Source: Ulota crispa
Taxonomy: Eukaryota; Streptophyta; Bryopsida; Orthotrichales; Orthotrichaceae
Direction of reading: 5' to 3'
Length of the DNA stretch: 64,000 bases
Assembly: GCA_963920765.1 (NCBI GenBank)
Contig: OY987247.1
Span: forward strand, 11,318,471 to 11,382,470
The position numbers were made by a program, and so were the translations under genes. This document shows positions 3,271 to 63,122 of this stretch, one piece after another. The notes below the pieces were generated by a model, which worked only from the letters and a program-made list of their open reading frames with translations, had not been told where the DNA came from and did no database searches. Each line of letters begins with the position of its first letter. The stretch's first letter is position 1.

Positions 3271-3481
3271 GGGACAGTGACGTTGCAGTCAAAGTGCCTG
3301 AACCAGAGTGAGAGAGTCTGTGAGTTGACAATAGGAGTGAAGTGGGCGATGTACCCCAAGTGGTACGTGCATTGACTGGCATCCAGGTATTGAGTTCTCG
3401 TGGACTTTGATTTCTATTTCCAGATTAAACTCTCTCTCTCTCATCCCAGATAGTTATCTAGATTTGCAGACTCTGGTGGCC

Positions 3482-4543
3482 ATGGCGTCCTTGAACGATG
3501 GCCAGCTTCCACCCTTGATGTCCATGATCGTACCAGGCCTGCCGCCAATGCGCCAGTCCAAGTACGTTCACGAGGCAGAAAAGGCCATAAAGCGGTACGT
3601 GGAGCACAACGGGAATATCCGTTCCTTCGGCAAGTACTGTATTCTGGGCCTTTCGTTTTCTAGCTATACGCACTGCACAGTAGTCAGCGTGGACCGCCTA
3701 GTAGCAATCTCCATTTATTACGCTATTGCGTTCGTGCTGGATGATGCCTTCGTCGACGAAGCTGACCACATAGACGAGGTTTTTCTGGACCAGTATGGCA
3801 TCGACCGCACTGCTCGTGAGAGCCCTCAGAAAATGCAACAATATCTCGATCATTTGCACTCGGTTCATGCTCAAAGGCAGCTACCACGTAGTCCTGCCAC
3901 CTTGATTGAGACCATGATGTGTGAGTTGGGTAGGGACATGTTGTCGTTGTCCAACCCAGAATGGTTCAAAGCCTACGTTGAGAGCCTCGATGAACACTAC
4001 CTCACAAGTGTTACCAGCCATGCTGACATCCTTGCAGGCCACAACAAATGCTTCGAAGAGTTGGATGCTTATACCGTCATGCGCGATGGCGACGTTGGTG
4101 GCAAGTTCATTCAGTTGGTGGCCGAGTTTGCCAGCAATATGTACATTCCAAAAGCACTGAGATCAGATCCGTTCATGCACAAACTAACCACTGCAGCATC
4201 CATCCATTTGGGATTATCAAATGACATCTACTCGTATCCCAAGGAGATCTCACATGAAAAAAATCCCCGCAACCTGATCACAGTGCTCATGAAATGCGAA
4301 GGGCAGTCCTTTCTTCCCACGGTGCGCCGAGCATTTGAGCTCGTGAACGAGTATGCTCGCACCATCGTAGATTTGGAGTCAGAAGCTTGGAACCCAGCTT
4401 TGCAGAATCACTTGCAGGAGATCAAAGCACTTGTTGCAGGCAACATGTACTTTGGTTTCATGGACCCGCGCTATCGGCAAGCTGATTCAGTGTTTCCTGA
4501 ACTGAGAGACATGACTTCCAGTTGGAAGATAGTTCCTCGTTGA
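3482..4543 (+). CDS. Microbial terpene synthase-like (MTPSL) class I terpene synthase
   Basis: A 353-residue single-exon class I terpene synthase, which ionises a prenyl diphosphate with Mg2+ and cyclises it, probably in the cytosol (no transit peptide seen). The metal-binding motif DDAFVD (DDxxxD) is at residues 87-92. The NSE triad is N247, S251 and E255 in NDIYSYPKE. R201 sits exactly 46 residues before N247, the spacing of the diphosphate-sensing arginine in this fold, followed by D204 and G206 as linker/effector candidates. An RY pair (R330, Y331) lies near the C-terminus. Length and single-domain form match bacterial/fungal-type enzymes and the plant MTPSL family, not the two- or three-domain seed-plant synthases. 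The ATG at 3482 is chosen because it has a strong plant context (GTGGCCATGGCG) and begins a normal N-terminus; upstream in-frame sequence has no ATG. No disabling change is seen. The product cannot be predicted; a sesquiterpene is a reasonable guess given the lack of a plastid signal. Confidence 0.93.
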   Translation: MASLNDGQLPPLMSMIVPGLPPMRQSKYVHEAEKAIKRYVEHNGNIRSFGKYCILGLSFSSYTHCTVVSVDRLVAISIYYAIAFVLDDAFVDEADHIDEVFLDQYGIDRTARESPQKMQQYLDHLHSVHAQRQLPRSPATLIETMMCELGRDMLSLSNPEWFKAYVESLDEHYLTSVTSHADILAGHNKCFEELDAYTVMRDGDVGGKFIQLVAEFASNMYIPKALRSDPFMHKLTTAASIHLGLSNDIYSYPKEISHEKNPRNLITVLMKCEGQSFLPTVRRAFELVNEYARTIVDLESEAWNPALQNHLQEIKALVAGNMYFGFMDPRYRQADSVFPELRDMTSSWKIVPR

Positions 4544-20031: not shown

Positions 20032-20035
20032 ATAA

Positions 20036-20964
20036 CCCCTGAAGGCTCAAGTGTCCCCTCGGGGGACAAATGGACCTCGGGCATGTACCTGTGACTAAAC
20101 CAGTTTTATAATTTTTTTGAAACTTTTGAGGATTGTGGAGAATTCAAAGATGTGCGTGTACATCTAACTTTTTCTTCATTTTGACATTTATTGAAGAAGT
20201 TATGCATGAATTTCTGAACAACAAGGGAGTGTAGGCAGTCCGGGCAGCCCAAAAAACTTCTTTAAAAATTTGATTTTCAAAATTAAAAATCTGAAATTGA
20301 TTCTTTAGATTTTTACAAATGTGGGAAGCTGTGAATCATTCAATCCTAATTTATGAGTGAGGAGTTTTGGTTTTCGGGTAGGTATGGGATTCCCAAACCT
20401 CCATTCCTTTTGCCCCTTGTAAAATTTGGTCTTTGACTTTTTTTTTACTTTTTTTTTCCAAGTTGTAGTAAACTAAGATTCCTTGGTTTTCACCATTTGG
20501 ATCAAAGTTATTCAAATTTCTCAATTTTACATAAATCCTCCAAGTTTGCCTAGTATATATGCAAATTTCATGGCCTTCAGGCATTGCAAGATTTTACAAA
20601 GTATGTATCACACCTCCAATTCATTTGAGATATCTCCCACACATACCTAACTTGGTCTTCTACATGGGAAAAATAAACTTCAACTTTGCGTAGAGCAAAT
20701 TTTTTGATATAGGAGAGGTTGAAGGCTTCTGAATTATTTGGGCAGTAGGGAAAAAAACTTTTTTTATGACTTCAAATCTAAATATCTCACTCTTATATAT
20801 CTAGAATGAGATGACTTTTTCTCCCCAAGTACCTGTCATAGTTTAGGGCAAGATCCTACAATTGGATTTCCAATAAAAACAATTTTTCTTACCTTTTTAC
20901 TCATTCCTCCAAAAGTGGCAGTTTTGAGTGACTTTCACAGAAAAAGGGCTTGGGCCTTTAGGGG
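20036..20964 (-). mobile_element. CCCCTAAAGG-family element, ATAA target
   Basis: A 929-bp element, left tip CCCCTGAAGGCTC, right tip GGGCCTTTAGGGG. It is flanked by ATAA, not TTAA, on both sides (20032-20035 and 20965-20968). The left tip is the palindrome-bearing end of the family (GTCCCCTCGGGGGAC at about 20050-20064). The right tip is the end that carries CAAAAGTGGCAGTTTTGAG. A short open frame on the minus strand is not conserved between copies. Confidence 0.85.
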
Positions 20965-21162
20965 ATAACAGTGAAGTGTGAACTGTGGTTGTTTAGTAAT
21001 ATTTATTATCAAGTGTGTCTCTGCACCCTAAACCCTAAACCCTTTCAAATTGAAATATGCTTGTATTGTTTTCCTATATGGTAGCAGTATGATTGTAGTG
21101 TTTAAAAATCTCCTAAAATGGTTTTGTCATTTCATTTTCAAAATGTGACATACTACATTTAA

Positions 21163-22076
21163 CCCCTAAAGGACCAAGCAAAGTTTTCACCAAAAACTCT
21201 TCAAAACTGCTAGTCTTAGAGCATGAACCAAATTTGAAAAAAATCCATTTTTATGCGTATGTGACCATAGGATCTTGTGAAAGAATGATTATAGAAGACA
21301 TGGAAAAAAATTCAGAGTTTCCACCACATGAATTAGAAGTTAGAATGGTTTGAATATTCAAAAATGTCTTGTGAAAAATCGGGCAGCTACCCTTTAGAAG
21401 GTGAAATTCCTAAGGAAAAAAGGCCATGTGGGTGGTACTTCTCTAAATTCCTTATTCCACCTCAATAAAGCACATGTCAAAAAAGTTTCAAATCATTTGG
21501 AGTTGTATAACATATGGAAAAAAATTAGTAAGTGAAAAGAAGTAGAGAATGATTCAAAACACTAATTTGTTAAGAATATAATCATGGAAATGAAAAATGC
21601 CAATCCCAATGGTCATAATGCTGTCATAAACAATCGTTATCCTTTGGTTTTGTTTTGTTTTTCCAAAATGTTGAAAATTGAGTAAAATAAAGGACTTCAA
21701 AGTTTATTTTGGAGTAGAGAATTCATAATTGCCTGCAAACAAAAAAAATCCTTATAACTTTCATCTCATTGATCCAAACGGAATGATTCAAAGCTTCCTA
21801 CATTCACATAAATTTCCTAAACCAACTTTAAAATTTTGTTTTTGAAAAAAGTGATTTTTAAAATCTTCCCAGGCTGCCCAACAAACAAAAAAAACAACAT
21901 ATGAGGCCACAACTTTTTACTCATAATTCCAAATGTCATGAAATTTAGTGCATATGAAAGATAAACCTTGTCCCCACATTTTGTTAAAATTTCAGCCTAA
22001 AATATGAAAAGCTCTAATCACATGTACCTGCCTAAAATTGCTATGTTTTTATAAAGGGGGTCTAGTCCTTTAGGGA
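21163..22076 (+). mobile_element. CCCCTAAAGG-family element
   Basis: A 914-bp copy flanked by TTAA (21159-21162 and 22077-22080). Left tip CCCCTAAAGGACCAAG, right tip AGTCCTTTAGGGA. Between this element and the previous one (about 21028-21043) is a lone CCCTAAACCCTAAACCC, the plant telomere motif. It is too short to be a telomere. 22081-22719 is AT-rich with no gene. Confidence 0.88.
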
Positions 22077-22719
22077 TTAAGGCCAATTCTTGATTGTTTT
22101 CACCAATCAAAGATTCCATAACAGTTATTAAATTTCTTGTAGAACATTTTAAGGGTAGCCAAGAAAATGGGATTTTTGACCCTTTTTGTCCACTTAGCTA
22201 CACTTTGTGATTGTTATTTTTATCTATTTTGTGTGAAACTAGTCTTATTGGAAAGGTGGGAAATTGGAAACCTTGGCTTTTTAGAAATGCAAGGTTCTTT
22301 TCAATCAAAGCTTGCATGAAGCGTTAACATCCAAAACCACACAAGCATGAAAAACTAGAGATTCTCCACATACGGCTCACTCAATCATTATAGTATTTCA
22401 CCTCCAACGGTAGATCTAGCTAAAATTTTGATATGTGACAACAAACAAGGTGTCCTTCACATTTGTATGGTTGGATTGTTCAAATTGGGTCCATATTTGA
22501 TTCAACTGCACATCTAAATTTATCATCCTTGTTAGTGGGTATTTTGAAAATGGATGTGTTCCTTAAAAAGTTAACAAGGTAAGGCAGCCTAATTGTCAAG
22601 CCAACCTAAGTGCAATATTCATTGTAGGCTTTGCAGTGATAATGAATGTGAAACATGCTCTAGTTTGATGCATATTTTAAGTAGACTCTTCAACTTTGGT
22701 ATATACAATCAGTATCTAA

Positions 22720-23122: not shown

Positions 23123-23650
23123 TTACTGTACAAAAATATCACCTGGCTCTTAGGCTGTTGAAAGACCCCGGGAAAAGGAGGCTTTGCCAATCCTAAATGG
23201 AGGTTGTGATGAACATCCATTGAAAGTAACCTAATTTATAGTAAGGTACACACCCATTCCCAATTGCTCCCCAATACTGCACTCTATTTTTGGGGTGTTC
23301 ACCGTCCACTTTTGCACCCAAAGTGGAGCGGTGAATGTTGCTTGCACAAGCAGTTTTGCAACATGTCAGTTGGTAAGTTACCATGAGAGGATTGGAATTG
23401 GGACCGTCAAGTGCTATTATAGGAACACATCCAAGCGATTTCAAGGTTAGTCTAGAGTTGTTAATAGGGACCATATGAGCTGCAATTTTGCCCTTTAACA
23501 CAATATAATTTGCAATACTTTTTTTCACAAACATTACATTCCATGATAGCTTGTTGAAAGGCTAACCCTCTGGATTTTTCTTTGGAATTTTCCAAAACCT
23601 AGAGGTACCCCAATCCCTTAAACAATTGGGTACATGTCTGTCTACCTTAA

Positions 23651-24579
23651 CCACTAAAGGACCAAGCCCTTTCTTTTGCCAAAATCACACAAAATTGCAA
23701 CTTCTAGGAGATGAGTAAGAATGTAGATTTTTTTTTTTTGAAAATCCAATCGTAGGATCTTGCCTTAGAAGAGAAGGAGTACTTGTGCAAAAATAATCAG
23801 GTCATTCTAGATGGAGAAGAGGGAGATATTTACATCTAAAGTGAAGGGAAAAGTTTTTTTCTGTGCTGTCCGTAAATTTTAGAAGCCTTTGACCACTCTT
23901 ACATGAAAAAAATTGCTCTACCCAAAGTTGTGCTTTTATTTTCCATGTAGGAGATCAAGTTAGGTATATGTGGGAGAACTTTCATATCAACTAGAACTGT
24001 ACAACACATAGGAAAAAAATAGTAAATAAAAAAAAAGTAAAGAATGATTCAAACCACTAAATTGTTAAGAATTTATTTATTGAAATGAAAAATGCAAATC
24101 CCAGCGGTCAAAACGTTGTAGTAAACAATATACTTCCTTTGGTTTAATTTTTTTTTCAAAATATTGAGAATTGAGTAAAATAAAGGATTTCAAAGTTTGT
24201 TTTAGAGTAGAGAATCCATACCTGCTTGCAAACAAAAACTCCTCATAACTTTCATCTCATGGATTGAAATTACATGATTCAAAGCTTCCACCCTATAAAA
24301 AAAAATCTAAAGAACCAATTCCAATTTTTTATTTTTAAAATTTGTGATTTTTAAAGATTTTTTTTGGGTTGCCCAAATTACCACTCCTGCCCAATTTTTG
24401 ATAAATTATTGCATAACTTCTTTGTTAAATGTTAGAATGAAGAAAATATTAGATGCCCACCTAGATCTCTAAATTCTCCACCTCCAAAAAAAGTTTCAAA
24501 ATATAACATAAAGAGGCTTATCAAAAGGTACGTGCCCAAAATCCCATTTCATCCCAAAGGGACAATGGTCCTTTAGGGG
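23651..24579 (+). mobile_element. CCCCTAAAGG-family element
   Basis: A 929-bp copy, left tip CCACTAAAGGACCAAGCCC, right tip AATGGTCCTTTAGGGG. Left flank TTAA (23647-23650). The right flank TTGA (24580-24583) is one change away. It carries the internal block CAATCGTAGGATCTTG shared by most copies. 24584-25500 has no gene. Confidence 0.85.
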
Positions 24580-24772
24580 TTGAGGTCCCCTTTACACTAG
24601 AGCCAAGAAGCCGTGGAGAGCAAAATTTCAACTAATGAAAACTTCAAGAATTGAGAAGACCAAGAAATGTTACTTTAGATGTGAATTTTTTTTCAAGAGA
24701 ACAAGGAAAGGAGAAAATGAGGTGGACAACACTTTTGTCTTGTCTTGCATGGCAATAAAAAAGTACAAGGTT

Positions 24773-26186: not shown

Positions 26187-26195
26187 TTAGTTTAA

Positions 26196-27108
26196 CCTTT
26201 AAAGAATCAAGCCCATTATTTTGGGGTAAAAATCACTCAAAAGTGCCATTTTTAGGGAAATGACTAAAAAGGGAGGAAAAGAAGTTTTTTAGAAGATCAA
26301 AACCATGTAATCTTGCCCAAGACTATTAGAGGTGCTTTTGGAAAAAAAACAGCTCATTTTAGATGAAGAAGAGTGAGATATTGACATCCAAACTATAAAA
26401 AAATGTTTTTTTCTTTCACACCCAAAACTTTCAAAAGTCTTTGACCACTCTTATAATAAAAAATTTGTTTTACAGAAACTTCAGGTTTAATTCCTCCATG
26501 TAGAAGACTATATTATGTATGAGTGGTAGAATTTTCAAATGAATTGGAGGAGTACAACATACTATATAAATTCTTGCAATGCCAGAAGGTCATTAAATTT
26601 GCAAATGCACGAAGCAAAATTGGAGGCATTATGTGCAGTTCAAAAATCTGAATTATATTGATCCATATGGTGAAAACCAAGGAAGCTTAGTTTAGTACTA
26701 TTTGGAAAAAAAATACATGAATTGCTCAAAAGAGTTAGCTTCCAAATTCTACAAGGGGTAGATGGAATGGAGGGTTGGGGGTCCCCCAAGACATGCCCCT
26801 TCCATTCCACTCCCCTTTGCCCAATTAAGTAGCCATGCCTTGTGCCCCTAAAAGCTAATTGGCTTTAAAGTTAACACCCGTTTACAAAAGAAAGGCCTTG
26901 CCCAAACTACCCCTTCTATCCTAGTTTTGATAAATTATTGCATAATTTCTTTCTTGAATGTTGGAATGAAGAAAAGTAAGAACGCCACATAGGTATTTGA
27001 ATTCTCCACTTTCCATAAAAGTTTCAAAAAATCTTACAAACTAGTACAATTGTAGATACATGCCCAAAATTCCATTTGTCTCCCAAAGGGACATTGATCC
27101 TTTAGGAG
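26196..27108 (+). mobile_element. CCCCTAAAGG-family element
   Basis: A 913-bp copy flanked by TTAA (26192-26195 and 27109-27112). Tips CCTTTAAAGAATCAAGCCC and TTGATCCTTTAGGA, more diverged than average. The right end keeps the CTCCCAAAGGGACA palindrome-like block. Confidence 0.82.
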
Positions 27109-27169
27109 TTAAAGCTTTGAACACTACAAGACTTCTTTGCACATTTGGGCACTTTTTTGTCTAATTATT

Positions 27170-35414: not shown

Positions 35415-36030
35415 ACATATACATACATATGGAATTGATATATGTACCAGCCTTTATCAACTATTCAATCACACCTACTATATGTGGTTAATATTTACAA
35501 TATTAAAGTAATGTTGACTATAAGAAAAACATCACTAATTTGGAAATACAAATTTGACAAAGAAATTGCAACTTTGGGTTTTTCTTTTCAGCTCATGATC
35601 TCGCTCATAGTATCAATTTCAAAGAATTTAAATTAAACAAAGCATAATTCATATATTTTTAAATTGGTAATATGAGCAGGATCCAAAGCTGAAAAATAAA
35701 ATAAAGTTGTAACCTCAATGTCAAGCTGTATTTTCAAATTACCTAGTATTTTGCCCATGGTCAAAACATACTTTAATGTTGTACATATTGACCATATATA
35801 ATAGGTGTAGTATAATAGTTGAAAAGAGGTGGTACATATATCAATTCTCACATACATATACACATACAATCAATGTCATATATTGCTACTTAATATTATT
35901 TATTTTAATAAACTTAAAAGTAGAAGCAAAAAAAATTTAACATAAAAATTAAAGAAAAATTTAAAAATACATCAAATAAATAAACTTTCCAAGTACCAAA
36001 CGTCCATATTGTGGATGATGTGCAATATAA

Positions 36031-36983
36031 CTCCTAAAGGCCCAAGCCTTTATTTCTAAGAAAGTCATTCAAAACACTCACTATTGGGGGAATGAGTAGA
36101 AAGGTAAGAAAATTTGTTTTTTTTGGAAATCCAGCCGTAGGATCTTGCCCTAGACTATGGGAGGTATTTTTGTGAAAAAAACTCAGCTCATTCTAGATGT
36201 AGAGGAGTGAGATATTGACATCTAAAGTAAAAAGAAAAAAAAAAATTCCCTACTTCCCAAAAATTTCAAAAGCCTTTAATGGCTCTTGTATCAAGAAAAT
36301 TGCTCTATCCAAAGTTGAGGTTTATTTTTCCCATGTAGAAGACCAAGTTAGGTATGTATGGGAGAATTTTCAAATGAATTGGAGGTGTGGATCATATTTT
36401 GTAAAATTTTGCAATGCTGTAAGGCCATGAAATTTGCATATATGCTAGGCAAAATTGGAGAATTTATGTAAAATTCAAAAATCTGAGTTACTTTGATCTG
36501 AATGGTGAAAACCAAGGGACCTTAGTCTACTACAACTTGGGAAAAAAAGAAGTAAAAAAAAAATACACAAAGAGCTAAAATTATTAAAGCAACAAATTCT
36601 ATAAGAGGCAAAAAGAATGGAGGTTTGGGAGTCCCATACCTACCCGCAAACTAAAACTTCTCATAACTTTCATCTCATCAATCAAAATTAAATGAATAAA
36701 AAATTTCTACATTTGCATAAATCTAAAGAACCAATTTCAGATTTTTTTTTTTTAAATTGCAATTTTGATTTTCTTTTTAGGCTGCCTGCCCTCCCCCTTT
36801 TTCAAAAATTCATGCATAACTTCTTCAATAAATGTTGGAATGAAGAAAAAGTTAAATGCCCACGTAGATCTTTGAATTCCCCACCTCCAATGAAAGTTTC
36901 AATAAATCACAAAAAATAAATTAGATGTAGGTACATGACCGAAATCCATTTGTCCCCTCCGGGGACAATTGGTCCTTCAGGGG
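36031..36983 (+). mobile_element. CCCCTAAAGG-family element, ATAA target
   Basis: A 953-bp copy flanked by ATAA on both sides (36027-36030 and 36984-36987). Tips CTCCTAAAGGCCCAAGCC and TTGGTCCTTCAGGGG. It is the second copy showing an ATAA instead of a TTAA duplication. It lies inside the 8.7-kb foldback interior. Confidence 0.85.
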
Positions 36984-39007
36984 ATAATATTATGTTTTTT
37001 CATCAAGTATTCACTTTTTGCAATGTGGATTTTAATCACAATTTTACTAAAACTTCAATTCACATATGGGAACCAATGAACCTCAATAGAGAGGGCCTTT
37101 CAGAATGAAATCACTGTGGAATTATATTCACATTCCACAAATTATTTCGCACCGTAATTAACATTAGTGTTCAGTATTACAATTTTAACACAAAAAGAAA
37201 TGTAAATATTACATTTCAAAGCTCCTTTGTACATTTGGTGAAAACTTGAAGTATTCTAATTTTTTTTGTAGGTACTCATCAAAAAACACATATCAATTAC
37301 TATATATATATGTGCAAAAAATTCAACCATGGGTGTAATTCACAATGAAGATCACCACGATAAATTGTTTTTAAGCATAACAATAAATTTTCTAAACATA
37401 ATCGATTACACGATAATCTCCACAAATCATTACATTCAGAGTGTTATATTTTTATCCATCACAACAAAATTCATTTACAATTGTCATTATCTTGTCTATA
37501 ATGGAATCACAAAATATTTTAGGATATCAAGTTGCAAAACTTGAATTTTTTATATTGGTGATAGAAATGGCTGATTTTGCCAAGTGGATGGAATCTAAAA
37601 TTAAAACTATTAAAATTTTTATTCAAAGAGTGAGTTAGAAATTTCCCTTTTAGTTTCAATTTATGAGCATTTTATAAATACACTTTACAAAAATGCCCAA
37701 TTCGGACACAAGTGAAGACTTTAGGAGTTAATACATATAAAAACAAACATGAATAGAGTCTTGGACATAAAGTCATACTCTTTTTTTAAACCCCTCCCAC
37801 ACATTCAGTTCTTTATCAAATTTAAAAGTGATTATGTTTGAAAAGCTAGCTAAGGGAGACAAAAAAGTATTAGAATTTAAAAACTAGATTATTCTTATTC
37901 TATGCTTTTAATCCATGCCAAATGCAATTTTGCATAAATGGGTATGCCGTATTTACCAACTTTTATCAACATCGTCAGCATTTGTGTGGTTTTCATAGCC
38001 TTTAAAACTTGAAATTGTCCCAATTCATGAAAGCTTATTGTGCATTGAGAATAGATTGAAAAAGTACTAGTGGTAAATTCTTGACAAACTTGTAATGATA
38101 TTAAATACATTTAATCATAACTAGTTTTTGTTTTTAAATGTCTTTTTTCTTTGAAAACTTCTCCTAATTAAATCTAAGTCAAACATTATTGAGATTTGCT
38201 CCTTTTTCTTAACTTTTCAAATATGTATTTAATTTTGAATTTGATAAAGTATTGACTGCTTGAGAGAATTATAAAAACAGGACTACAAATTTCTGTCCAT
38301 GATTCTATAAACACAAACACAAATATGAATATAAACATCAATAAAAATTTAAAATAGACACAAATACAAGTGTCATAAGAAAAATAATTATACTCATATA
38401 TTATCATTTAATTTAGATTTCAATAATTGGTAAAGAACTAAAAATAACATAGCAGTCATTCAATTGAGCTATCAAAAACTACGACTTGTATTGTTAATTA
38501 TATATTGCAATATATATCAAGTATGAAAATTCTAGTATTAAATTTGTAGAAAATAGTGCTATTCTAAAACATAATTTAAGCCACTTAATATTACTTGAAG
38601 TTGATTGTGTATTGAGAGTCTTTATTTTCAGAAATTATTGTCATTAAAAGTAAAAGCAACTCTTGTATTGCATCTAATGAGCAAAAAGAGTAGCACAATA
38701 CAAACAAAATGTGTGAGCAAGTGCGTGCATGTGTGTGTGGGTTTTCCAAAACTGCTTCCGCATATGTACACCCTCATCTAAATGAGCTTTTTCAGTTGTT
38801 TAAAAATTAGACTAGTGAGTTGCTCTAGCAAAGCAAACAAGTGACCTTGCTTCCAAAATCAACACTTTTACTTGTATGAATGTTTTCACACGCTGATGGA
38901 AAACCCACAAGGCATGTGTGCTTTTATGCTAGGAATGGTGTTGGCAAAGTACTGAATGTAGTTCAAAAGGTTGATCTAAATTTGCTCCTTGTCAACACTG
39001 CTCTTAA

Positions 39008-41281: not shown

Positions 41282-41338
41282 TTACTAGAGTTGAAGAAGG
41301 TCATGTTTGGGGACTTTGGGCATGTCCAAAACCTTTAA

Positions 41339-42262
41339 CCCCTAAAGGACTGAGCCCTTTTTTCTGTCAAAATCACTGAAAACTGCCACTTCTAGGGGAT
41401 GAGTAAGAAGGTAGGTTCTTTTTTCTTTTTTGGGAAATCCAACCGTAGGATCTTGCCGTAAACTAGAAGAGGTACTTATAGGAAAAAAATCAGATCATTC
41501 TAGATAGAGATAAGGGAGATATTTACATTTGAAATGAAAATTAAGGTTTTTTTCCGTGCTGTCCAAAAAATTTAGAAGCCTTTGACCACTCTTACATGAA
41601 AAAAAAAGCTCTACACAAAGTTGAGGTTTTTTTTTTCCATGTAGAAGACCAAGTTAGGCATGTGTGGGAGAATTTTCCAATTAATTGGAACTATACAACA
41701 CATGGGGAAAAAATAGTAAGTAAGAAGAAGTACAGGATGAGTCAAATCACTAAAATGGTAAGAATTTAATTATTGAAATGAAGAATGCAAATCCCAACGG
41801 TTGTAATGTTGTGATAAACAATCTACTTCTTTTGGTTTAGTTATTTTTTCCAAAATATTGAAAATTGTGGCAAAATATAGGACTTCAAAGTTTATTTTAG
41901 AGTAGAGGATCCGTAATTGCCCACAAACTAAAACATCTCATAACTTTCATCTCATTGATTGAAATGGAATGATTCAAAGCTTCCCAAGTGTAAAAAAATC
42001 TAAAGAACCAATTTCAATTTTTAATTTTAGAAAAATGGAAAATTTAAAGAAGTTTTTGGGTTGCCCAAATTGCCCTCCCACCCTTGGGCAGCAAAAATTC
42101 TTGCATAACTTCTTTGTCAAATGTCAAAATGAGGAAAAAATTAGATGCCCACATAGATCTTTGAATTCCCCATCTTCCATAAAAGTTTCAGAAAATTACG
42201 CAAAGTAGTTTAGCCATAGGTACATGCCCGAAATTTCCATTGTCCCTTGAAGGGACAACAGT
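41339..42262 (+). mobile_element. CCCCTAAAGG-family element with rearranged right end
   Basis: Left flank TTAA (41335-41338), left tip CCCCTAAAGGACTGAGCCC, internal block CCAACCGTAGGATCTTG. The right end reaches the ATTGTCCCTTGAAGGGACAA palindrome, but the last CCTTTAGGGG is replaced by a 62-bp unit that is then repeated. The right border is therefore approximate. Confidence 0.75.
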
Positions 42263-42375
42263 AGCTTGCTTGAAAAGAGTCAGTTTAACACCTAAAGGAC
42301 CATTGTCCCCCGAAGGGACAATAGTAGCTTGCTTGAAAAGAGTCAATTTAACCTCTAAAGGACCATTGTCCCTTC
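42238..42375 (+). repeat. 62-bp tandem repeat joining two TTAA elements
   Basis: Two full units and part of a third. Each unit contains a palindrome of the GTCCCTTGAAGGGAC type, AGTAGCTTGCTTGAAAAGAG and a TTAACaCCTAAAGG element tip. The array lies exactly where the right end of one TTAA element meets the left end of the next. Confidence 0.9.
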
Positions 42376-43289
42376 AAGGGACATCTGGGATTTTGGGCAT
42401 GTACCTATGGCTAAACTACTTTGCTTGATTTTCTAACACTTTTATTGAAGATGAAGAATTATAAGATCTGTGTGGGCATCTAATTTTTTCCTCATTTTGA
42501 TATTTATTGAAGAAGTTTTGCATGAATAACTAAAAAACAAGAGAGAATTGGGCAAAAAAAAAAATTACAATTTTTTAAAAATAAAATTTGAGATTGGTTT
42601 TTTTAATTTTTATGTATTTGGGAAGCTTTGAATCATTCAATTCTGATAGATGAGATGAAAGTTATGAGAAGTTTTAGTTTGCGGGTAGGTATGGGACTCC
42701 CAAACCTCTATTCATTTTCCCCCTTGTAAAACTTGTTACTTTACCTTTTTGAGCTCTTTGTGTATTTGTTTTTTGACCTTGTTTCTGTAACTTGTAGTAG
42801 ACTACAATTCCTTGGTTTTTACCATTTGGATCAAAGTAATTCAAGTTTCTAATTTTTACATAAATCCTCCAATTTTGCCTAGTGTATATGCAAATTTCAT
42901 AACCTGATGGCATTGCAAGATTTTACAAAGTATGATCCACACCTCCGTTTTATTTGGAAATTCTCCCACACATACCTAACCTGGTCTTCTACATGAAAAA
43001 ATAAAGCTCAACTTTGTATAGAGCAATTTTTTGGATATAGGAGTGGTCAAAGGCTTCTGAAATTTTTGGGCAGTGATTTTTTATTTATTTTTTCACTTTA
43101 GATGTGAATATCTCACTCCTCTACAACTAAAATGAGCTGATTTTTTTCCCACAAGTACCTCCTATAGTCTAGGACAAGATCCTATGGTTGGATTTCCCAA
43201 AAACTTTATTTCCTACATTTCTATTCATTCCCCCAAAAGTGGCAGTTTTTGGTGATTTTCACATAAAGAAGGGCTTGGTCCTTTAGGGG
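42352..43289 (-). mobile_element. CCCCTAAAGG-family element
   Basis: A 938-bp copy flanked by TTAA (42348-42351 and 43290-43293). Left tip CCTCTAAAGGACCATTGTCC (palindrome end), right tip TTGGTCCTTTAGGGG. It is in opposite orientation to its left neighbour. Confidence 0.87.
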
Positions 43290-43677
43290 TTAAGGATTGA
43301 TCTGCTTTTTTTCATGACCTATTCAAGACATGGAGAATTTTGGACTAATTTCCAAACAAAGAGAAATGGATATTAAATGAAACACAATTTTTTTCATAAT
43401 TTTTGAAGCATTAATAAATTGTTGATGAGTTTTTAAAGTTTTCTATAGTAGGAACCTATTTGTGACTCTAGATTTTCCATAAACAGTCCCCTTGCAAGTT
43501 ATAAAGAGATGAGGTGAAATCAAGGAGTGTGATTGACTCTTGCAATAAAAAACACATTGTCTCATATCCATTCTTGGGCTACCTGTGCTACCTGTGAGAC
43601 TCATTATTTGACAAAGGTTGCTTTTTGAGCAGAGTACCTTAGCAAAGATCTTCTGCAAGAAATTAATCCATCAGATC

Positions 43678-44885
43678 CAATGTTTTTTTTTTGGCAATTT
43701 GGAGCAAAAAAGCACCAATTTTTTTTGACCGGCACCAAGCCTATAGAAAAGTAAACATGATTATTTGGATGAAATTGCCAAAAAGCTTCAAAATTTAAAA
43801 AAAACTTGGATGAAATCGCCAAATTGTGGATGAAATCCTAATTATAGACATGTATTGTGTGCTAATGTGATATTTTCTATCCAATATGTGGATGATTGTT
43901 GAAATTTGGAGCACCACTATAACACTTAATCCCTAAAGGACCATGGCCTTTATTTTGTCAAAAGACACTCAAAACTGCCACCTCTATGGCAAAGAGTAAA
44001 AAGGTTTGAAAATTAGGCATTTTGCATATTTAACCATAGGATCTTATTCTAGACTACTATAAGAAGGTGTCATACAAAACTCAAGAACTTTGATCGCATA
44101 AATTGGAAGATATATGCAGCTAAAGTGTAAAAAAAAACTTTTTTTGCACCTTGCTTGACTAGATTTTTTAACTTTGAACATTTTTAACTTAAATTTTGCA
44201 CCACAGAGTTTGGAGTTCTATTTTTGCATGGTGGGAAGTTGAGTTGGGAATCTCAGGAATTTAAAAAAAAAAAGAATACTTAATTTTCATTCCTTAAAAA
44301 AACATTAGGTAGAAGAAGGTATGAGATTGAACAAGAACTTAAATTGCTAATAACCCTGCAATGGAATTGAAACGCAATAATCCCAATGGTGAGATTGTTC
44401 TAAAAAGCAAACTTCACCCTCTCCAACAATTTTTTTTGAAAAAATGTTAAACCTCCATTCAAAAATGAAGTTTATAAGTTATTTTTTCAAGTAGATGCTT
44501 GAGTAGCTCAAAAAACAAGATTGTCCATAACTTTCTCATAACTAGTCCAAATGGAATGAATCAAAGCTTCAGGTGTAGACAAAGATATAATCTATAAGAA
44601 AAAAAAATTTAAGTTTTTATAAGAATTTTTTTTGCTGCCCCTAATCCCCAAATTTGTGCTTATTTGGGAATAACTTTTGCTCCTTGGCATTGATTGGAAT
44701 AAAAGTTATATTTCCCAAAAGCTAATGTGTTTTTCTATTTTCAAAAAAAGTTTCAAAAAATTAAGACAAAAATTGAGACTGTAGATACCTGCCCGAAATC
44801 CCATTTGTCCCGCGTAAGCACAATGGTCTTTAGGGGTTAAAATCGCCACTTTGGCATTTCTTAAAAAATGAAAAAAAAAAACCTG
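43678..44885 (+). mobile_element. hAT-like MITE, copy 3, split by a TTAA element
   Basis: Starts CAATGTTTTTTTTTTGGCAA, ends AAAAAACCTG, flanked by ATCAGATC (43670-43677 and 44886-44893). After removing the nested element at 43930-44836 the length is about 300 bp, as in the other two copies. Confidence 0.93.
43930..44836 (+). mobile_element. CCCCTAAAGG-family element nested in the hAT-like MITE
   Basis: A 907-bp copy flanked by TTAA (43926-43929 and 44837-44840). Tips TCCCTAAAGGACCATGGCC and AATGGTCTTTAGGGG. The other two MITE copies read ACATTTTAAATCRCC or ACATTTTAAATTGCC across this site, so insertion occurred in TTAA. Confidence 0.93.
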
Positions 44886-48027: not shown

Positions 48028-49199
48028 AACACCATATTCGTTAAATTGAGAAAAACAAAGGTACCATTTTGTACTCCACCTTAAACCCAAAAGTTACCTT
48101 AACCCCTAAAATTCTTTTGTGTTTAGAGGCCCAAAATTGCTTCAATATACTAGTCCCCAATCTAGGGTCAAAATCTTCATCAAAACTTACTTTTTAACAA
48201 ATCCAACCGTAGGATCCTTTGGTTGACTTGCACAAGTACATTGTCCCAAAATTTCAAAATGAATAACCCCACCAATTGCAAGATCAATGTGCCTAAACTT
48301 CAAAATGTAGGCTTTTCTAGTTCTTCCAAAAGGTGAAGTTTTGATTTTCAAACTTTTTAGAGAAAAACACGTATGTTGTGTTTCTTGTGCAATTTTGGCA
48401 ATATGTTGGAAAATGGGTTGAAAGCATAAATTTAAAAATTTAACCAAAAAAAAAAGGATTCATTTTTATAAAAATTGTAAAGTGAAAGGTATTGATAAAT
48501 GAAAGATATAACTAATATGCTAACAAGTTTTGGAAGAATTTGGAAATTGTTAATCCCAATGGTGAGAATGCTCTAGGAGACAATCAATAACTTTCATATT
48601 AATTTTCATTTGAAAATTTTCAAATTTTAGAGTAAAAGATAACTTTATATGTTTTTTCTACCCCCTTCCTACCTTCATTGCCCGCAAAATAAAACTCCTT
48701 GTAACTCTTACCTCATTATTTGGAATTGAGTGATTCAATTTTTTTTGAGTAGGTATCAATTTATAAAATTTTATAAATAAAAAAATAAAAAATTTAGAAT
48801 ATGTTTTTTGCTGCCCGATTTGACATTAAAATTGAAAAAGCCTTATAACTTTTGCATTACTTATTGGAACGCCATGAAATAAAGCTTCACATGTAGATTA
48901 TGATGAGTAGCATCCATCCTAAAAGTTTCATGAAAAATTTCCAAATTATGAAGTCAATAGAGCCTACCCAAGTTCTCATAAAGCCCAAAGTGGGCTCCTT
49001 GGTCTTTTAGGGGTTAAACCAGATTCGAAGGTATCAGATTCAACCTAAGCCACTGAGATTTTATCCCTCGCAAATTCCTCTTCTCAAATGAGGGCATGTG
49101 TACCAAAAAAAACATTGCAAGCTCAATTTTAGGTGATCAGCTAAAACCTTCAGAAGTCCCAAAATGTACAGTTTTTCCCAATTTAACAAATATGGTGTT
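48028..49199. mobile_element. AACACC-type MITE, split by a TTAA element
   Basis: Starts AACACCATATTCGTTAAATT and ends AATTTAACAAATATGGTGTT, flanked by TAAG (48024-48027 and 49200-49203). It is inserted 8 bp inside the left tip of the larger TTAA element. Without its own insert it is about 257 bp. Confidence 0.88.
48103..49013 (+). mobile_element. CCCCTAAAGG-family element nested in the MITE
   Basis: A 911-bp copy flanked by TTAA (48099-48102 and 49014-49017). In the intact MITE at 62842-63122 (read in reverse) the same place is GTTACCTTAAACCATATTTG. Here it reads GTTACCTTAA, then the element, then TTAAACCAGATTCG. This is a clean empty-site comparison showing a 4-bp TTAA duplication. Confidence 0.95.
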
Positions 49200-51951: not shown

Positions 51952-51955
51952 TTAA

Positions 51956-53153
51956 CCCCTAAAGGACTGCGCCATTTTTTCAGTGAAAAATCACTCAACA
52001 AAAAACTGCCACTTTTGGGGGTTAGTAAGAAGGTAAATTTTTTTTGAAAATTTGGAAAATTCAACCGTAGGATCTTGTCCTAGACTGTCTTAGGTACTTG
52101 TGGAAAAAAAATCAGGTCATTTCACATAGACATGAGTGAGATATTTACATCTAAAGTGAAAAGAAAAGTTTTTTTTCATGCTGTCCAAAATTTCAGAAGC
52201 CTTTGACCATTCTTACATGAAAATAATTGCTCTACGCAACTTTGCGCTTTATTTTTCCCATAACACCATATTTGTTAATTTGGGAAAAATAAAGGTACTA
52301 TTTTGTACTCCACCTCAAACCCAAAAAGTTACTTTAAATTAAATTTGAAGGTATCAAATTTAGTTTGAGCCACTTAGATTTTTTCCCTTGCAAATCCCTC
52401 CTCTCAAGTAAGGGCACGTGTACAAAAAAAAAAATGCTGAGCTTGGTTTGAGGTGATCACCTCAAACTTCTTGAAAGTTCCAAAATATACTGTTTTTCCC
52501 AAATTAATGAATGTGGTGATCCATGTAGGAGATCAAGTTAGCTATGTGTGGGAGAATTTTCAAATCAATTGGAACTACACAACACATGGGAAAAATCAAT
52601 AAGTAAAAAGAAGTAGAGAATGAGTCAAATCACTAAATTGTTAAGAATTTAATTATTAAAATGAAAATTGCAAATCCTAATGGTCAAAATGTTGTGATAA
52701 ACAATCTACTTCATTTCGTTTAATTCTTTTTCCTAAATAATTAAAATTGAGTAAAATAAAGGACTTCAAAGTTTATTTTAGAGTAGAGAATCCATAATTG
52801 CCCGCAAACAAAAACTCCTCATAACTTTGATCTCATTGATTGAAATTGAATGATTCAAAGCTTCTCACCTATTAAAAAAATCTAAAGAACCAATTTCAAA
52901 TTTTAATTTAAAAAAAAATTAAATTTTAAAGAAGTTTTTGGGCCGCTTGGGCGGGCAATCCTTCCCAACTTTCAGAAATTCTTGTGTAACTTCTTCAATA
53001 ATTATTGGAATGAGGAAAAAATTAGATGCTTGCATAGATCTTTGAATTCCTCACCTTCAATAAAAGTTTCAAAAAATCACACAAAGTAGCTTATCAAATG
53101 GTACATGCCCAAACTCCCACCCGTCCCCCAAAGGGACAACAGTCCTTTTGGGG
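51956..53153 (+). mobile_element. CCCCTAAAGG-family element, split by an AACACC MITE
   Basis: Flanked by TTAA (51952-51955 and 53154-53157). Left tip CCCCTAAAGGACTGCGCC, right tip CAGTCCTTTTGGGG. Without the MITE at 52262-52520 it is about 935 bp. It carries the internal CAACCGTAGGATCTTGTCC block. Confidence 0.9.
52262..52520. mobile_element. AACACC-type MITE nested in a TTAA element
   Basis: Starts AACACCATATTTGTTAATTT and ends AATTAATGAATGTGGTGAT. CCAT is present on both sides (52258-52261 and 52521-52524). Uninterrupted TTAA elements read TTTTCCATGTAGGAGA-like sequence here, so the 4-bp duplication CCAT is supported by an empty site. Confidence 0.9.
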
Positions 53154-53157
53154 TTAA

Positions 53158-62841: not shown

Positions 62842-63122
62842 AACACCATATTCGTTAATTTGGGAAAAACGGTACATTTTGGGACTTTCAAATTTTGAGG
62901 TGAAACCGTGAAGGTCTTAGGTGATCACCTAAAATCGAGTTCAATGTTATTTTTGTACACGTATGACGTGTCCTTACTTGAGAGGAGGAATTTATGGGAA
63001 AAAAATCTTAATGGCTCATATTGAATTTGATACCTTCAAATATGGTTTAAGGTAACTTTTTGGGTTTAAGGTGGAGTACAAAGTGGGACACTTGTTTTTC
63101 CCAAATTAATGAATATGGTGTT
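62842..63122. mobile_element. AACACC-type MITE, intact reference copy
   Basis: A 281-bp copy with tips AACACCATATTCGTTAATTT and AAATTAATGAATATGGTGTT, complementary over about 30 bp. TACA is duplicated exactly (62838-62841 and 63123-63126). This copy supplies the uninterrupted sequence used to date the TTAA insertion at 48103. Confidence 0.93.

Follow-up and report, generated by a model that had tools for sequence, protein, structure and literature searches.

A 911-bp TTAA-flanked element in a moss genome is very probably a nonautonomous piggyBac transposon

We conclude, with a probability of roughly 0.93, that a 911-bp element in a 64,000-nucleotide stretch of moss DNA (hereafter the window) represents a nonautonomous piggyBac transposon, MITE-like in character, of a plant genome. 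The element occupies positions 48103 to 49013, has the tips CCCCTAAAA...TTTTAGGGG, and was characterized from its sequence, from its copies and from a profile built on 40 copies. It is a known kind of transposon, and what is notable is the moss host and the large numbers.

Results

The sequence-only reading of this stretch had placed the element between two copies of TTAA inside another repeat, and when we read the window sequence the coordinates and flanks proved exact. The element runs from CCCC at 48103 to GGGG at 49013, is bordered by TTAA target site duplications at 48099-48102 on the left and 49014-49017 on the right, and carries a CCCCTAAA tip at both ends; the terminal inverted repeat of the window copy is 9 bases when counted by eye. 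It splits an AACACC MITE that spans 48028 to 49199. An intact AACACC MITE at 62842-63122, which in a minus-strand reading shows GTTACC-TTAA-ACC with TTAA present once, represents the related empty site. When the flanks of the split MITE were joined and compared with the intact MITE, 225 of 286 columns aligned and the junction was free of gaps, which bears out both the interruption and the intact relative. The earlier reading had called this comparison proof of a TTAA duplication, which is too strong for one related empty site: TTAA is palindromic, so a single empty site cannot separate a duplication of TA from one of TTAA, and it is the ATAA-flanked elements described below that settle the four bases.

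The AACACC MITE has inverted repeats of ~29 bp and duplicates 4 bp of target sequence that follow no consensus. A genome search scored 40 of its copies among 3912 candidates, and an exact 4-base repeat lies beside the tips in 15 of the 20 copies that were fetched (L084-L103) as well as in both window copies, where it reads TAAG and TACA. A 4-bp duplication of this kind is not what hAT, Mutator, Harbinger or mariner elements produce; the candidates are presumably superfamilies that duplicate 4 bp, Sola1/2 or Chapaev among them.

We searched the genome from which the window derives (274.8 Mb in 157 contigs, ten of them 15.8-41.4 Mb in length and an eleventh of at least 5 Mb) and found, from 1258 first-look candidates, at least 40 nearly full-length copies of the 911-bp element, window copy included, at 90-100% identity. 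With the window copy left out, 34 of the 39 further copies are flanked by TTAA on both sides; the others have TTAA/TTGA (two copies) and TTAA/TTAT, TAAA/TTAA and ATAA/ATAA (one each). The T at -4 and the A at +4 are each retained in 38 of the 39 copies while positions further out vary, indicating that the whole of TTAA, rather than TA or TAA, is targeted. This retention bears on two alternative assignments. The first is a mariner-like element with a TA duplication and ACCCC...GGGGT ends that was inserted at TTAA, an assignment for which the ambiguity of a single-TTAA empty site leaves room. Bases outside the TA should then vary, yet each side retains them in 38 of 39 copies, and where the target starts with A it does so on both sides; we give this assignment next to no chance. 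The second is a PIF/Harbinger (Tourist-like) MITE that makes a 3-bp TAA/TTA duplication and lands in TTAA by preference. Harbinger nucleases are abundant in this genome (150 scored of 278 candidates for PF13359), but the outermost T and A are each retained in 38 of the 39 copies, three elements have ATAA on both sides in place of a 3-bp TWA duplication, and the same ends are found on piggyBac elements. The sequence-only reading had named a Harbinger partner with the same tips as evidence that would speak against TTAA duplication; inward-facing CCCC tips enclose the nuclease at none of the three Harbinger loci that were read, from the 150 scored and with ~2.5 kb of flank, and one of the three has two CCC tips nearby that face outward. 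A Harbinger origin is extremely improbable.

The three ATAA elements are one copy of the 911-bp element (L045) and two related elements in the window (20032-20968 and 36027-36987). Since ATAA is not palindromic, its presence as a direct repeat shows a four-base duplication and excludes TA or TAA as the whole of it. Paired matching mutations in each of the three elements are unlikely, and the 911-bp family and its relatives apparently use ATAA as a minor target. An empty relative of the L045 site is 72% identical, and the bases there do not settle the ATAA. Further empty sites were sought by comparing the joined flanks of the 39 copies with the window and the fetched loci, a comparison that yields related repeats and not the same loci. 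Eleven joined-flank queries gave 21 junction-spanning alignments. A clean single TTAA is present for four of the 11, namely L020 (at two places in the window), L025 (in L068), L027 (in the window) and L042 (in L066 and L008, with one of its three alignments, to L006, having no TTAA). Four more (L013, L019, L036 and L047) have a slot with no readable TTAA, and three (L016, L021 and L043) were dropped for a self-match or a junction gap. Related empty sites with one TTAA thus total five when the original MITE is included, and a 3-base duplication, which the earlier reading had likewise set against its claim, is clearly shown at none of the 11. Together with the flanks of the 34 copies and the ATAA elements, these sites sustain the claim that the element duplicates TTAA. 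The copies differ from the column majority by a mean of 5.1% (range 3.2-7.0%; window copy 5.4%), indicating that the 911-bp family is not very young.

The same genome is rich in piggyBac transposase genes. The piggyBac transposase profile PF13843 gave 120 matches at 116 scored loci from 528 candidates, with a best E value of 1.3e-73; it matched in none of 14 control genomes, a weak control in that these genomes appear to be prokaryotic. Stops lie inside 110 of the 120 matches, so an active source is not seen among them. PF13843 was found in pieces of L066, L067, L072, L068, L065 and L060. One open reading frame piece of L066 matches the transposases of piggyBat (9c0f) at E 1.7e-16 and of piggyBac (6x67) at E 3e-13, and an open reading frame of L067 matches 6x67 at E 1.8e-17 and 9c0f at E 1.2e-11. 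The catalytic aspartate stretches all align in L067 (DE, DN and GVD..DQ), and the first two align in the single piece of L066; we take the aligned positions to be D268, D346 and D447/D450 of piggyBac. Cys-rich tails are visible by eye in the L066 and L067 open reading frames, where no profile reported them. Two stop-free, two-part transposase matches (L079 and L080) were considered as host genes and set aside, as by eye they resemble broken transposase copies. Two stop-free matches of equal score and opposite orientation lie 14 kb apart (C2:36765124-36766008 and C2:36779670-36780554) and are possibly a recent inverted duplication. A TACA-type microsatellite of ~600 bp (L067:4530-5117) directly follows the transposase gene of L067.

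We then looked at the ends of the transposase-bearing elements, reading 24 loci for a survey of tips and two more later. In the DNA first read, TTAA with inward CCCC or CTCC tips is present at both ends of four of the 24 loci. These are L066 (L066:28-5773; 5746 bp), which has CCCCTAAATGCCTA at both ends with identical 14-bp tips; L065 (L065:719-5948) and L061 (L061:792-6099), which are ~90% alike and have CCCCTTGAGGACTA-type tips, one of the L061 tips being CTCC; and L070 (L070:975-6498), which has CCCCAAAGTGACA tips. Two longer elements emerged when loci were extended upstream. The L072 element, extended by L076, occupies C5:24506226-24515054 (8829 bp) with a 5' tip of TTAACCCCTAAAGGACCATTG and a 3' tip of TTAACCCCTAAAAGACCAAG, and the L068 element, extended by L077, occupies C9:12440860-12449389 (8530 bp) with a 5' tip of TTAACCCCTAAAGGACCGTTG and a 3' tip of TTAACCCCTAAAGGATTGAG. 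All four ends of these two elements read TTAA-CCCCTAAA(A/G)GA, and each element encloses a piggyBac transposase gene that has decayed. The similarity between L072 and L068 covers the gene, the 3' end and the first 200-300 bases of the 5' end, and the stretch between the gene and the 5' end is not colinear throughout. Within 2 kb inward of all four ends there is no end of the opposite type, whereas a MITE of the window has both, so the L072 and L068 tips do not come from the insertion of a standard MITE. Counted by eye, the inverted repeats match at 14 of 14 positions in L066, 13 of 14 in the L072 element and 12 of 14 in the L068 element.

Other loci were less complete. L067 has a right tip; L067:75-6095 was rejected as a full element upon finding a right tip at position 1000, which makes 75-1000 probably a separate MITE, and L067 was used for its right end and its protein only. 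A one-sided CCC(C/T)T-type tip, a possible end, is present at L048, L057, L053, L059, L060, L064 and L069, and a less typical one-sided tip, also a possible end, at L063, L071 and L073. In the DNA read at the remaining seven of the 24 loci (L049, L052, L054, L055, L056, L058 and L062) a CCC-type tip was not found. Candidate tips of other types (CCCTTCA, CCCTTTA, CCCTAGA, CCCTTGAGCG and CCCCAAAG) occur at L048, L057, L053, L060, L063, L064, L070 and L073. Judged from sequence, this variety of tips would suggest that a single genome hosts several piggyBac lineages. A search for TTAACCCCTAAA-type tips in the 1.5 kb around each of the ten best transposase loci found no pair and one chance-like match inside a gene; longer flanks are needed for such a search. 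Tips near a transposase by themselves prove little, as they are so common: the exact 20-base tip pattern TTAACCCCTAAAGGNCCAAG occurs 4746 times in the genome, one per ~58 kb, and its reversed control 0 times. Likewise, a loose tip pattern occurs 46 times in the window, ~2.5 times the shuffled number (mean 18.75 and maximum 27 in 20 block shuffles), so a tip by itself was not taken as an element.

The connection between the 911-bp family and the transposase-bearing elements is made by homologous ends. The 3' tip of L072 equals the right tip of the window 911-bp element over 16 bases after the TTAA. Moreover, six window elements of 0.92-1.2 kb match both ends of L072, with 75-78% identity over 316-455 columns to its 3' end, reaching the tip, and 78-85% over 162-203 columns to its 5' end, reaching the tip in all except 41335-42258. 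Specifically, the element at 42348-43293 (TTAA flanks included) matches the L072 5' end on its left (85%) and the 3' end on its right (77%), both to the tip. The element at 41335-42258 is in the opposite order, with its left end matching the L072 3' end (78%) and its right end stopping ~18 bases short of the 5' tip (85%); the profile of the 911-bp family matches it at 41423-42232 (E 1.6e-20). The other four are 51952-53157, flanked by TTAA/TTAA and matched by the profile in its right half (E 1.1e-23), 36027-36987 and 20032-20968, each with ATAA on both sides, and 23647-24583, flanked by TTAA/TTGA. By their sequence these six look like internally deleted derivatives. All six are also recognized by the profile built from 40 copies of the 911-bp family, with E values of 1.1e-23 to 1.8e-5, and on these matches the 911-bp family is judged to be their diverged relative.

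Three further window elements are flanked by TTAA on both sides. That at 43926-44840 is matched by the 911 profile (E 7.6e-19) and, at its right end, by the L072 5' end; in that at 26192-27112 the match to the L072 3' end stops before the tip; and that at 21159-22080 is a probable relative, matched by the profile at 21190-21793 (E 2e-21). With the 911-bp element included, the flanks of the ten window elements are TTAA/TTAA in six, ATAA/ATAA in two and TTAA/TTGA in one, and the right tip is lost in one. These roughly ten related TTAA or ATAA elements lie within 33 kb (20032-53157) and make up near 15% of the window length. At 42236-42330, immediately before the element that starts at 42348, a short stretch that carries the L072 5'-end tip sequence is present nearly as a tandem repeat.

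Compared directly at the DNA level, the 911-bp element and the transposase loci showed weak matches only. When eight loci were searched, the 911 profile reached the 5' tips of L076 (E 9e-5) and L077 (E 0.004), and the left end of the 911-bp element has a weak match, in register with the tip, to the 3' ends of L067 (E 0.003) and L068 (E 0.01). With the 16 tip bases excluded, the match of the right end to the L072 and L068 5' ends was equalled by 3 of 600 background segments; other piggyBac ends also scored fairly well with it, their matches being equalled by 17 of 600 (L066) and 21 of 600 (L072 3' end), and those of the left end were equalled by 8 of 600 for L068, 9 of 600 for L067 and 127 of 600 for L072. 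These counts are conservative, as true copies of the element are present among the loci that supplied the background. Given the weakness of the direct left-end match, the link to the transposase elements leans on the intermediate elements of the window. The remaining alternative is that the 911-bp element belongs to Kolobok or Sola3, superfamilies that also target TTAA, and merely coexists with piggyBac elements. Use of TTAA is common to those superfamilies, and the internal sequence of the 911-bp element is in no transposase-bearing element that was read, the transposase profiles searched in the genome being PF13843 (piggyBac) and PF13359 (Harbinger nuclease). The CCCCTAAA tip and the terminal homology, on the other hand, lead to elements with a piggyBac transposase, and we regard Kolobok or Sola3 as very unlikely. 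The piggyBac assignment, which the sequence-only reading had reached from the terminus, is thereby strengthened by transposase elements of the same genome that have the same tips and homologous ends.

Some observations concern the host. Its genome matches the chlorophyll a/b-binding profile 56 times, indicating a photosynthetic organism. One of these genes has its best single-protein matches, among the 60 listed, in 8htu and 7xqp, complexes of Physcomitrium patens, with a longer chain (9vfj, 620 residues) scoring higher; a moss host is consistent with this. At window positions 3341-4543 there is an open reading frame matching Terpene_syn_C_2 (PF19086; E 1e-23), which we take to be of the microbial-like terpene synthase type known from non-seed plants.

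Discussion

As a nonautonomous piggyBac transposon, the 911-bp element would depend on longer relatives in the same genome to make the transposase. This transposase would bind the CCCCTAAA tips in trans, cut the element out and insert it at TTAA, or sometimes at ATAA, with the target TTAA being duplicated upon insertion. By analogy with piggyBac chemistry, the reaction may pass through a hairpin intermediate and excision may be seamless. We infer that the 911-bp family is now old or inactive.

More tentatively, and at slightly less than even odds in our judgement, piggyBac may have radiated widely in this moss lineage, with long transposase elements that fall into several tip types, and nonautonomous copies in the thousands, making it a main DNA transposon group of the genome that either entered by horizontal transfer or was kept since early land plants. 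If true, this prominence in a moss would contrast with the near absence of piggyBac from accounts of plant transposons. PiggyBac, known mainly from animals, is a much-used tool of genome engineering, and a plant genome with more than 100 transposase loci and thousands of TTAA insertions would offer plant-adapted ends and transposases for comparison. Such a result would also help to correct plant repeat annotation, in which TTAA elements could end up under Harbinger or among the unknowns.

The claim that TTAA elements of this kind are little described in land plants fits the literature that we searched, with the qualification that piggyBac has been named in plants. In the available passages, it is listed among angiosperm MITE superfamilies (PMC10004981) and among plant DNA superfamilies (PMC10794571), and the fern Ceratopteris has 1230 piggyBac-labelled copies that amount to 0.00% of the assembly (PMC6890710). 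The corresponding passages of PMC10813416 state that piggyBac has been isolated from plants, and those of PMC5505980 that moth piggyBac has been used in rice and is yet to be tested in P. patens. For mosses, we found no description of piggyBac elements in the portions seen of the open-licence literature, which excludes subscription journals and Repbase. The sole occurrence shown from a moss genome paper (PMC10619864) is the word 'piggybacking', PMC11704416 contains no occurrence of piggyBac, and 0 occurrences are listed for PMC13120521.

The elements described here resemble the piggyBac superfamily, as represented by Trichoplusia ni piggyBac (6x67) and piggyBat (9c0f), in their TTAA target and its duplication, in their CCC(C/T)T tips and in a DDD transposase related by sequence. 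They are unlike moth piggyBac in having a land-plant host, in the 5.2-8.8 kb length of the transposase-bearing elements and in the decay of the copies read. The moth element is roughly 2.5 kb. In the passages of PMC2872659 that were available, the piggyBac terminal motif is given as CC(C/T)T, which CCCCTAAA contains at both ends of the 911-bp element, and piggyBac terminal inverted repeats are generally 12-19 bp. The available passages on angiosperm piggyBac-type MITEs (PMC10004981) include neither a transposase link nor an empty site, both of which are presented here. Likeness is also seen to the coral CMITE families, as portrayed in those parts of PMC2872659: these too are piggyBac-type MITEs with a TTAA duplication and tips that match the local piggyBac, and they share with the 911-bp family a weak internal similarity to the local piggyBac element, the difference being that their host is a coral.
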